A DNA stretch of 64,000 nucleotides from Peptococcaceae bacterium SCADC1_2_3 (GTDB taxonomy: Bacteria > Bacillota > Desulfotomaculia > Desulfotomaculales > Nap2-2B). A program made the translations under genes and the position numbers. The stretch spans positions 27,192 through 91,191 of the forward strand of contig JJNX02000002.1 in NCBI GenBank assembly GCA_000681355.2. Direction: 5' to 3'. Every line of letters starts with the position of its first letter. Positions within the stretch are counted from its first letter, which is position 1. Shown piece by piece: positions 13,439 to 47,762 of the stretch. The notes beneath the pieces are model-generated. The model was given only the letters and a program-made list of their open reading frames with translations. It did no database searches and was not told where the DNA came from.

Positions 13439-13478
13439 GGGCAGGCAGGATGCCTACCCTACAAGCCTGCCCTACTTA
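13439..13478. repeat. Related CAGGC-palindrome repeat between thrB and trxB
   Basis: GGGCAGGCAGGATGCCTACCCTACAAGCCTGCCCTACTT; shares AAGTAGG end and CAGGC(W)...GCCTG arms. Confidence 0.6.
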
Positions 13479-27243: not shown

Positions 27244-27816
27244 TTAAACAAGATTTAGGACGCGTGCCAAGCCGTAAGCCATTTCATTGGCCAAACCCTG
27301 CAGGAAACTTTCATCAGCTAGTTTTTCAGCGTCGGTTGATGTATCAATAAAAAGACACTCAAGCAAAACGGCTGGCATGGCAGTAGAGCGCAACACGGCA
27401 AAATTAGCTGCTTTTTTGCCCTGACCATGTTCTTTTACATTTATTTTCTTTAGATAAGCCATAATTTGATCGTGTAAAATCGCCCGCAGTTCATCAGTAT
27501 GTTTTTCCACTGCCGTTGAATGAACATAGCTTTCAAAGCCTGTTCCCCCGCCGGCGTTGATATGAATACTACAAAAGTAATCTGCTTTCAACCGGTTGGC
27601 AATGTTAGCCCGCTCATAAAGCGATACGTAACGATCATCTTCTCTGGTGAATTTAACGTTTAAATCATAAGGAGCCAGTTTTTCGGCGCAAACCTTTGCC
27701 AGTTTTAAAGTTAAGTCTTTTTCCTTTAGTAGCACAGGCATCTTGCCTGTGGTTTTTCCAACTGCCCCAGGGTCTTCTCCACCATGGCCAGGATCCAGAA
27801 CTAAAATTTTAGGCAT
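27244..27816 (-). CDS. N-acetylmuramoyl-L-alanine amidase (Amidase_3), carrying an in-frame palindromic repeat
   Basis: KILVLDPGHGGEDPGAVGKTTGKMPVLLKEKDLTLKLAK...RANIANRLKADYFCSIHINAGGGTGFESY...VLLECLFIDTSTDAEKL. Confidence 0.9.
   Translation of the reverse strand: MPKILVLDPGHGGEDPGAVGKTTGKMPVLLKEKDLTLKLAKVCAEKLAPYDLNVKFTREDDRYVSLYERANIANRLKADYFCSIHINAGGGTGFESYVHSTAVEKHTDELRAILHDQIMAYLKKINVKEHGQGKKAANFAVLRSTAMPAVLLECLFIDTSTDAEKLADESFLQGLANEMAYGLARVLNLV
27728..27757 (-). repeat. Palindromic repeat (short form) inside the amidase gene
   Basis: AGTAGCACAGGCATCTTGCCTGTGGTTTTT; same core as 34823..34901 and 47684..47762; encodes KTTGKMPVLL. Confidence 0.75.
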
Positions 27817-28000
27817 TTCTAATCCTCCCAAGCTTATTTACTTGTTTTTGTTATATCAACCAGATATTATCGTAATGCTATCTATGTTTCTAGAAATATC
27901 CTAAATTACTTTATTCTATAAATATTTTCTTTTTCCTTCATATTTCGCGAAAAGAATAGTATTATAATTAAACAAAAACTGAACGGGTGAAAATACAGCC

Positions 28001-33047: not shown

Positions 33048-33441
33048 AATGGGGGTCAGGTCTTGAAATATCATTTTTTAACCAGCCTTTACTTGAACAC
33101 CTTACTGGTCGTTGCTGACCGTTGTGTAATGAATTTTTATCTGCTTAGCTGTCTCATGCCGGTAGAAATGTTAGCGTCAGGAGTTTCGAACATGAGGTGA
33201 TAATGGTTATCCATGAAACAATAAACATGACATGACCAATTGTATCGTTTTAAAACCAAGCCCAGTATACTTTAGAAAATTTTCTCTATCCCGGTCACCG
33301 CTGAAAATCTTTTGCTTCGCATTTCCGCGGGTAGTGATATGGTGATATGGCAGACAGCACCAGGATACTCTATTCTTAATGGTCTGGTCATGTGGATATT
33401 ATAATAAACATTTTCTTATATTTCAAGACCTGACCCCCATT
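33048..33441 (-). mobile_element. Decayed REP-associated tyrosine (Y1/HUH) transposase element with 24-bp inverted ends
   Basis: AATGGGGGTCAGGTCTTGAAATAT (33048-33071) is the exact reverse complement of ATATTTCAAGACCTGACCCCCATT (33418-33441). The minus-strand interior reads MTRPLRIEYPGAVCHIT...and, out of frame, FMDNHYHLMFETPDANISTGMRQLS. Confidence 0.85.
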
Positions 33442-33735: not shown

Positions 33736-34692
33736 ATGGCATTAAAGAATGAAAGTATGAGCTTAAAAAAGAAGCACTTGCTTGATATGCAAAGTATTGC
33801 TCCAGAGGAAATTAAACTTATTTTAGACACTGCTTCTTCAATGAAAGAAATTCTTTTCCGGTCCATTAAGAAAGTGCCTACCCTAAGGGGACGTACTATT
33901 GCCAATGTTTTTTACGAACCAAGCACCAGAACGCGCGTCTCTTTTGAGCTGGCGGCTAAGTACTTGAGCGCTGATTGTATTAATGTTTCTGCTGCGGCCA
34001 GCAGTATTGTTAAAGGTGAAAGCTTGGTGGACACCGCCCGCACCCTAAGAGCCATGGGGGCTGATGTAATTGTGCTGCGCCACCCGTATTCAGGGGCCCC
34101 ATATCATCTAGCCAAACTGGTTTCGGCTTGTGTAATTAACGCCGGCGATGGAACGCACGAACACCCTACCCAAGCACTTTTAGACCTGTTTACGGTGCAG
34201 GAGGCAAAAGGTGAACTAGCAGCCTTAAAAATAGCAATTGTTGGTGATATTTTACACAGCCGGGTGGCCCGTTCGAACATTTTGGGTTTTACTAAAATGG
34301 GGGCAACGGTGAGAATATGTGGGCCAACTACCATGATTCCCGTAGCTATTGAGCGCACTGGCGCCCATCTTTACACCCAGGTGGAAGAGGCTTTAGACGG
34401 GGTTGACGTGGTTATGATGCTGAGGCTGCAGTTAGAGCGGCAGCAACAAGGACTGTTTCCTAGTGTAAGGGAATACACCCGGTTATACGGGTTAGACCAG
34501 CAGAGATTGGCCCTGGCAAAGCCCGATGCCTTGGTAATGCATCCGGGACCGTTAAATAGGGGCGTGGAAATTACTAGTGCGGTCGCCGATAGTGCTCAGT
34601 CGGTAATTAATACTCAGGTAACTAATGGGGTGGCGGTACGAATGGCGCTTTTATATCTTTTAGCCGGACGTTTTACGGGAGGTCAAGAATGA
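33736..34692 (+). CDS. pyrB: Aspartate carbamoyltransferase catalytic subunit
   Basis: [19 protein letters not shown]...[15 protein letters not shown]-like...[19 protein letters not shown]...[13 protein letters not shown]. Confidence 0.96.
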
Positions 34693-36053
34693 AGTTACTG
34701 CTTAAAGACGGTAATGTAATCAATCCTTTAAATAAAACTATTAATATACAGGACATACTAATTGTAGATGGTAAAGTGGCAGCCATAGGAAGGGAATTGG
34801 CCGCCAGCTTAGACTTAGACTTAAGTAGGTCAACCAGTGGCACAGGCTTCCAGCCTGTGGTTTTTAATGATGAAGAGACAATCAAGGACGCTTGTCCTAC
34901 CATTTCTGTTATTAACGCCAAAGGTAAGTATGTGGTTCCAGGATTAATTGATATGCATGTCCACCTGCGTGAACCAGGTTTTGAAGAGAAGGAAACAATT
35001 GCTACCGGTACCCAGGCTGCGGCCCGGGGGGGATTTACCGGTATAGTTTGTATGCCGAACACTGAACCGCCTGCCGATAATCAGGCGGTTATTTCTTTTA
35101 TTCAGCAAGTGGCCCAAAAAACAGGAGTAGTTAATGTCTTTCCGGTAGGAACCATAACGCAGGGCCGGGCCGGAAAAGAGCTTTCGGAAATGGCCTCACT
35201 GGCGGCGCAAGGGGTAGTCGCCTTCTCTGATGACGGGGCCCCGGTAGTTAACGCCAAATTAATGCGTCACGCTATGGAATACGCTAAAATGTTGGACTTG
35301 CCCGTTATTTCCCACTGTGAAGAACCGGCTTTGGCTGCGCAGGGCATGATGCACGAAGGGTTTACGTCAACCATGTTGGGCTTGAAAGGTATTCCTGCCG
35401 CCGCTGAAGAGGTTATGGTCGCCAGGGATATTATCTTAGCCAATTTAACCGGTTGTCACCTTCATATTGCCCACGTAAGCACTGCCGGCAGCGTAGAGTT
35501 GGTGAGAGCGGCCAAAGAAAAGGGAATAAAGGTAACCTGCGAGGTTACCCCTCACCATTTTACCTTAACTGATGAGGCGGTAAGTAGTTATGACCCCCAA
35601 ACAAAAGTAAATCCTCCCTTGCGAAGCAAAGCCGATGTAGTTGCTCTTCAAGCAGGACTTAAGGACGGAACCATTGACGTTATTGCAACTGATCACGCGC
35701 CGCATACGCAAGAAGAAAAAGAACTGGAATTTGAGCTAGCCCCTTTTGGAATGGTGGGCTTAGAAACAGCGGTTGGTTTAGTCTGGACAAAACTGGTTAT
35801 CCCAGGAATTCTGACTTCTTGCGAAGCCGTGGCCAAAATGACGGTTAATCCAGCCCGTATTTTAAACCTTAAGAAAGGCTTAATTGAAATAGGAGCGGAA
35901 GCAGATATTACCGTTATTGACCCTGAATTAACTTGCGTGGTAAAACCAGAAGAATTTGCCAGTAAAGGACGCAATACCCCTTTTAGCGGTTGGTCCTTAA
36001 AAGGCTTACCTGTAGCTACCATTGTAGGTGGCGAGGTTAAGTGGATAAAATAA
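34689..36053 (+). CDS. pyrC: Dihydroorotase, with repeat-encoded internal insertion
   Basis: [53 protein letters not shown]...HCEEPALA...[13 protein letters not shown]. Confidence 0.95.
34823..34901 (+). repeat. 79-bp palindrome-rich repeat in frame inside pyrC
   Basis: AAGTAGGTCAACCAGTGGCACAGGCTTCCAGCCTGTGGTTTTTAATGATGAAGAGACAATCAAGGACGCTTGTCCTACC; 73/79 identical by eye to the reverse complement of 47684..47762. Confidence 0.9.
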
Positions 36054-47139: not shown

Positions 47140-47688
47140 ATGCGCCTTCTTTTACATACTTGCTGCGCTCCCTGTACAATATTCCCGGTCGAGTACTTGC
47201 GGACCCAAGGATACGAGGTTTACGGCTATTTTTTTAATCCGAATATTCATCCTTATACTGAATGGCTCAAACGTAAAGAAGCCTTGCAAAATTATGCTCA
47301 AGTGGTTCAATTGGAAATGCTTTACGACGAAGGATACCAGTTAGAAGAATTTTTGCAGCAAGTTGTTTACCGGAAAAAAAATAGGTGTTTATTTTGTTAT
47401 GCTTTTCGTTTGCATCAGGCAGCCAAAATAGCTAAAGAAGAGAATTTTAATATTTTTAGTACCACTTTATTGGTCAGTCCTTACCAGCAACACGATCTAA
47501 TTAAAGAAATTGGCAAAGCAGCAGGAGCAAAAAACGGGCTAACTTTTCATTACGTAGATTTTAGACCGGGCTTTAGAAAAGCACAAAAACAAGCTAAAGA
47601 ATTAAACCTTTACCGTCAGCAGTATTGTGGCTGTATTCTTAGCGAACGCGACAGATATTACCCAAAAGTAAGCAGAAAGAAGCGGTAG
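47140..47688 (+). CDS. queH: Epoxyqueuosine reductase QueH (DUF208)
   Basis: MRLLLHTCCAPCTIFPVEYLRTQGYEVYGYFFNPNIHPYTEWLKRKEAL...CLFCYAFRLHQAAKIAKEENFNIFSTTLLVSPYQQHDLIKEIG...YCGCILSERDRY. Confidence 0.93.
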   Translation: MRLLLHTCCAPCTIFPVEYLRTQGYEVYGYFFNPNIHPYTEWLKRKEALQNYAQVVQLEMLYDEGYQLEEFLQQVVYRKKNRCLFCYAFRLHQAAKIAKEENFNIFSTTLLVSPYQQHDLIKEIGKAAGAKNGLTFHYVDFRPGFRKAQKQAKELNLYRQQYCGCILSERDRYYPKVSRKKR

Positions 47689-47762
47689 GATAAGCATCCT
47701 TGCTTGTCTCTCCATCATTAAAAACCACAGACTGGAAGCCTGTGCTACTGGTTGACCTACTT
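47684..47762 (-). repeat. 79-bp palindrome-rich repeat, intergenic copy
   Basis: Reverse complement AAGTAGGTCAACCAGTAGCACAGGCTTCCAGTCTGTGGTTTTTAATGATGGAGAGACAAGCAAGGATGCTTATCCTACC; the queH stop codon TAG lies within it. Confidence 0.9.

Follow-up and report, generated by a model that had tools for sequence, protein, structure and literature searches.

The 26-bp palindrome GTAG-CACAGGC-ATCTT-GCCTGTG-GTT, found inside an amidase gene at positions 27729-27754 of the window (the 64,000-nucleotide stretch of Peptococcaceae bacterium SCADC1_2_3, contig JJNX02000002.1, that was analysed), is a REP of the GTAG superfamily: a tagged stem-loop, multi-copy and mainly extragenic. We consider it very probable, at roughly 87%, that this REP was mobilised into the amidase by a RAYT (REP-associated Y1 HUH transposase) and that its frame was kept by selection. 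REPs take their name from being extragenic; in this one small genome at least seven Pfam-confirmed genes contain them as inserts that code for protein. The element and its host gene are:

27729-27754, plus strand: type A REP hairpin, GTAG-tagged; minus-strand in-frame reading TTGKMPVL in the amidase; net gain of 21 bp over the ortholog from the same genus.
27244-27831, minus strand: Amidase_3 gene (N-acetylmuramoyl-L-alanine amidase), host of the REP, supported by Pfam, orthologs and dN/dS.

A palindrome encoding TGKMPV within an amidase, reported at 27728-27757 by a first-pass annotation of the same DNA, is indeed present (the interval reads AGTAGCACAGGCATCTTGCCTGTGGTTTTT) and is read on the minus strand. 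The open frame 27244-27831 (minus strand) translates as DPGHGGEDPGAVGKTTGKMPVLLKEKDL and matches Amidase_3 (PF01520, E 4e-43), with the start of the protein likely at codon 6, at MPK; antisense frames were rejected as real genes on the basis of Pfam matches and orthologs. When folded, the 26-mer forms a hairpin of −9.3 kcal/mol (z = −5.2). Homologs had been expected to lack the loop, and they do. The ortholog in a genome of the same genus (G003; 91% identity over the aligned part) has exactly 21 bp fewer at the insertion point, its coding strand reading GTTGGAAATAACTTGAAGGAAAAA versus GTTGGAAAAACCACAGGCAAGATGCCTGTGCTACTAAAGGAAAAA in the window's genome (G000), and its protein VGNNLKEK versus VGKTTGKMPVLLKEK. 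The loop is likewise absent from all 27 more distant homologs inspected, which read DPGxxG, about two residues, and then (L)xEK. The ortholog in a second congener, G002, is filled; under the simplest history the element entered the common ancestor of G000 and G002 once the G003 lineage had diverged. Substitutions that also distinguish the empty site from the filled ones obscure the exact target site and any target duplication. Between congeneric orthologs dN/dS is 0.11-0.19, and the gene is under purifying selection. An intein was rejected as an explanation, the insert of 7 residues being far too short.

The other members of the family that occur in the window, together with the second host gene, are:

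34825-34900, plus strand: two-hairpin REP unit GTAGGTCAACC...GTCCTAC, in frame in pyrC; type A hairpin at 34837-34860, GTAG tags outside.
34689-36053, plus strand: pyrC (dihydroorotase), host of this unit, identified by Pfam; the insert is present in all three congeners covering the region, with differing in-frame lengths.
47685-47760, minus strand: intergenic copy of the pyrC-type two-hairpin unit; its type A hairpin (47725-47748) is the third type A copy in the window.
13440-13462, minus strand: sister REP hairpin (type B) GTAGGGTAGGC-ATCCT-GCCTGCC, with 47 genome copies at ≤2 mismatches.

The pattern CACAGGC-N5-GCCTGTG has two exact copies in the window; at ≤3 mismatches there are 5 matches compared with 1.26 expected, and none of 100 shuffles reaches 5. 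Natural variation of loop length in the amidase family could by itself suggest an ordinary lineage-specific loop that is palindromic by accident. Such convergence is refuted by the copies, and we regard it as having next to no probability in view of the perfect 7-bp arms, the tag, the ten copies in the genome, the shuffle control, and the occurrence of the exact 24-mer pattern GTRGCACAGGCWTCYWGCCTGTGG in at least 118 stretches of contigs from other genomes.

Common to the type A copies are a GTRG tag, a CACAGGC/GCCTGTG stem and a GGTT tail; the tag directly 5' of the stem is GTAG in the amidase and GTGG in most copies. This agrees with the form of the GTAG superfamily, in which an unpaired GTAG or GTRG tetranucleotide stands at one end of a stem-loop of 20-40 bp. 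The terminal tag CGTC that defines the Rickettsia RPE and the CGTC REPs is thus not the one carried here. A longer target signature, GGTTTTT, was rejected, since GGTT alone is common to the copies and the further T's are not. Accordingly, the earlier claim that the amidase and pyrC elements share their ends and architecture survives in part: the hairpins are related, but the pyrC copy belongs to a longer two-hairpin unit, and only GGTT is consensus. Type A hairpins number 10 in G000 (2.6 Mb), 12 in G002, and one each in G001 and G003; outside the genus, two one-mismatch matches were the only ones recovered from 37 relatives, and one of these, in G021, looks unrelated in its loop. Type B hairpins number 47 in G000, 44 in G002, and one or two in G001 and G003, with none in seven other relatives scanned. 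The further genome copies that had been predicted are therefore abundant, and we found no homolog with the same peptide encoded by unrelated DNA. The two types often occur as head-to-head pairs that resemble REP doublets. The REPIN doublet form (inverted REPs with tags outward) can be recognized in the pyrC unit and in the copy at 47685-47760, whose ortholog in G002 (L050) has an indel of its own; the amidase copy is a single hairpin.

Seven of the ten type A copies lie outside convincing genes and three inside; among the type B copies examined, in sampled loci, roughly a quarter are inside genes and most are outside or at gene ends. Most copies are intergenic, although the greater part of a bacterial genome is taken up by genes, which fits a coding entry that is tolerated, with a selective filter, and not favoured; of the two alternatives offered by the first-pass annotation, tolerance stands and preference does not. 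The filter can be seen in the reading frame of the retained copies. The GTGG form is free of stops in all six frames, while the GTAG form closes one of them (in the direct reading), and the retained intragenic copies are biased to the frames that read TGxxPV. Intragenic cases were defined as copies that fall within the longest open frame and have 60 or more codons to either side, a definition under which 230 distinct copies yielded 30 cases. TGxxPV corresponds to two of the six frames, and one third of the cases would be expected to show it; it was read in 25 of the 30. When repeat copies in one gene and homologous genes were counted once, by hand, 20 independent cases remained, of which 15 read TGxxPV (binomial test against one third, p = 1.7e-4). 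Pfam support is available for only part of the genes in this count, and three of the five exceptions have it (AcrB-type, PMT_2, HemN). The amidase, pyrC and ftsQ copies all use the TGxxPV frame.

Independent in-frame insertions of one family in both orientations, as proposed for the amidase and pyrC, are borne out, and ftsQ and several hosts of type B can be added to them. The pyrC copy codes for a 16-residue stretch within a whole inserted unit of 76 bp with two hairpins. This insert is present in G000, G002 and G003 (the gene of G001 is cut off at that point) and absent from the outgroups compared; in G002 a type B hairpin is nested in the loop, making the insert 24 bp longer with the frame intact, and in G003 the insert is eroded, again with the frame intact. 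The ftsQ gene (POTRA_1 and FtsQ_DivIB_C domains) carries a type A hairpin in frame in G000; its insert is eroded in G001 and G003, and in G002 it is a nested form that is 51 bp longer and in frame. The insert is absent from the outgroups compared. With dN/dS of 0.11-0.39 over amidase, pyrC and ftsQ, the three type A host genes are under purifying selection. Type B copies in 20 loci examined were found in frame in recJ (two copies), queA, an aroK-aroB fusion and an MPG DNA glycosylase; a further copy lies near the start of an alpha/beta hydrolase gene, and the hairpin is also present in a protein of 491 residues that has no Pfam match. QueA and RecJ have extra residues at the type B site relative to solved homologs; MPG shows no clear net gain and is a weaker case. 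The recJ gene of the window's genome (L401:2-2803) also contains repeated PTTDDRRPTTNDQQPTTD-like peptides, perhaps from another in-frame short repeat family.

These histories bear on two other accounts of why the inserts are retained. According to the first, the hairpin is retained because it works at the mRNA or DNA level, as an attenuator, a stabiliser, a gyrase site or a replication site, the peptide being a by-product. The hairpin folds well, and REPs are often transcribed and have DNA or RNA roles in other bacteria (PMC3733652). The palindrome has decayed, however, in pyrC of G003 and in ftsQ of G001 and G003, while frame and insert persist, and therefore structure is not the conserved feature; the frame bias, moreover, points to selection at the protein level, and we judge this account quite improbable. 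The second, in which the peptide benefits the host protein instead of being a tolerated scar, is only slightly less so. It would agree with the persistence of the pyrC and ftsQ inserts across the genus and with the location of the element near the active-site motif of the amidase, but the inserts vary in sequence and length between species, their carriers are unrelated proteins, and the position is naturally variable, being a loop of varying length in solved amidases (e.g. 4rn7).

As for the mechanism, the most likely course is that a RAYT inserted a copy of the REP into the amidase gene in the form of folded single-stranded DNA. In published work on other systems, the GTAG tag and the hairpin are recognised by TnpAREP, which cuts single strands at CT or CA (PMC8266576). 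The amidase would thereby have gained the 7-residue loop TTGKMPV between its conserved DPGHGG and KEKDL motifs, at a site that is probably surface exposed, and would have stayed functional because the net gain is 21 bp and the frame is stop-free in the REP. Selection would then keep only those copies that preserve the frame and are located in loops.

The pattern GTRGCACAGGCWTCYWGCCTGTGG extends over about a dozen phyla (Verrucomicrobia, Planctomycetes, Deltaproteobacteria, Cyanobacteria, Omnitrophota, Acidobacteria, Nitrospirae, Lentisphaerae, WOR-3, Chloroflexi, Sumerlaeota and others), and RAYT genes adjoin the exact REP in loci of Acidobacteria, Deltaproteobacteria and Verrucomicrobia. In L096 and L178 inverted REPs enclose the RAYT gene; in L144 it has the REP on one side and a REP-coded TGKMPVPP peptide on the other. 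Within the genus, the RAYT of L178 as query matches no gene in G000, G001 and G003 and gives only a weak partial match in G002; the genomes of the genus are 70-96% complete and could be missing a gene. This search result, like the numerous short indels around the type A copies, would also agree with copies that multiplied through recombination or replication slippage from hairpin to hairpin, no transposase being involved. We nevertheless find that alternative unlikely, if the least so of those considered, since the GTRG tag and the hairpin mark the limits of what was inserted, and RAYT genes of other phyla are bracketed by that very sequence; mobilisation by a RAYT is the more probable reading for the genus. 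The PF01797 genes of G000 were rejected as movers, as no type A or B hairpins flank them. Two separate observations were made in the course of this survey. The window contains a decayed Y1-transposase element at 33048-33441 (remnant 33140-33328, minus strand, one stop), whose perfect 24-bp terminal inverted repeats, AATGGGGGTCAGGTCTTGAAATAT, fit the GGGGWSAS motif of TIRYTs (PMC3733652). In the cyanobacterial loci L078, L130 and L398, tandem in-frame runs of REPs (SCGTGILPVADNYTTSP repeats) occur in a hydantoinase/oxoprolinase linker and in another ORF.

Elsewhere an entire transposase is in frame inside host enzymes. In a Udaeobacter locus (L178, 1535-5485) a REP-RAYT-REP unit lies in frame within carB. 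A search of REP-bearing genomes with this RAYT gave long open frames in many of them, including an in-frame RAYT at the same carB position in nine Verrucomicrobia species (L178, L230-L234, L236, L237, L239, L272); although the genomes are metagenome assemblies, the junction is seen again and again in independent species. The RAYT-bearing carB is the only carB found in every one of the nine genomes. The carB of G092 holds a RAYT of a clearly different family with other flanking peptides, so that two RAYT families occupy one site; in G105 and G106 the site is uninterrupted. The carB-embedded RAYTs keep an HVH or HVHA motif, and their dN/dS is 0.09-0.19 where computable. In-frame RAYT domains are also found in recG (L260-L266, L274, L276), in a Sua5-type threonylcarbamoyl-AMP synthase (L244, L245, L278) and in leuS (L269), with differing flanking repeat peptides (e.g. 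GSARVSRVGDGVAPS), as well as in a DUF1156 protein of a deltaproteobacterium. It is an even question whether this REP represents a coding-compatible mobile family, in which REP-RAYT-REP units would enter essential genes as open frames, the transposase being translated as an internal domain of the host protein and long kept, and of which the small in-frame REPs of the window would be non-autonomous relatives.

With an empty site, filled sites and later in-frame changes to compare between congeners, one can trace what becomes of a newly gained in-frame insert, and the frame bias tests directly whether a selfish repeat is under selection at the protein level. If a RAYT can indeed persist inside the only carB as an internal domain that is translated, the low-copy, vertical survival of RAYTs becomes testable, and the surrounding essential gene could protect them.

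These results can be compared with systems already described. The window copy alone is not a new kind of element, because intragenic in-frame GTAG and CGTC REPs have already been described (Di Nocera et al. 2013, PMC3733652), for example GTAG-20 of Opitutus terrae, with GTGG tags. Like them, the present element combines a GTRG tag with a short palindrome, is multi-copy, has some copies in frame, including in repair genes, and is RAYT-associated in other phyla; unlike them, it is hosted by an uncultured Firmicutes genus, one near-identical sequence extends over about a dozen phyla, the frame bias has been measured, and REPs are nested within REPs in frame. Whole in-frame RAYTs in sole-copy genes are not described in the text of PMC3733652 as searched. 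The RPE of Rickettsia are also palindromic repeats in frame in functional genes, but RPE-4/6 are classed as CGTC type and RPE-1 is longer, whereas the tag here is GTRG. With REPIN/RAYT systems (PMC3116915, PMC8266576) the family shares the inverted doublet of the pyrC unit, with GTAG tags outside, and a RAYT as the presumed mover; it differs in that the amidase copy is a single hairpin and a RAYT of that type was not detected in the genus. A literature search of open-access papers for the hairpin and peptide strings gave no match, and against that literature the cross-phylum family, the frame bias, the nested in-frame copies and the in-frame transposases look new.
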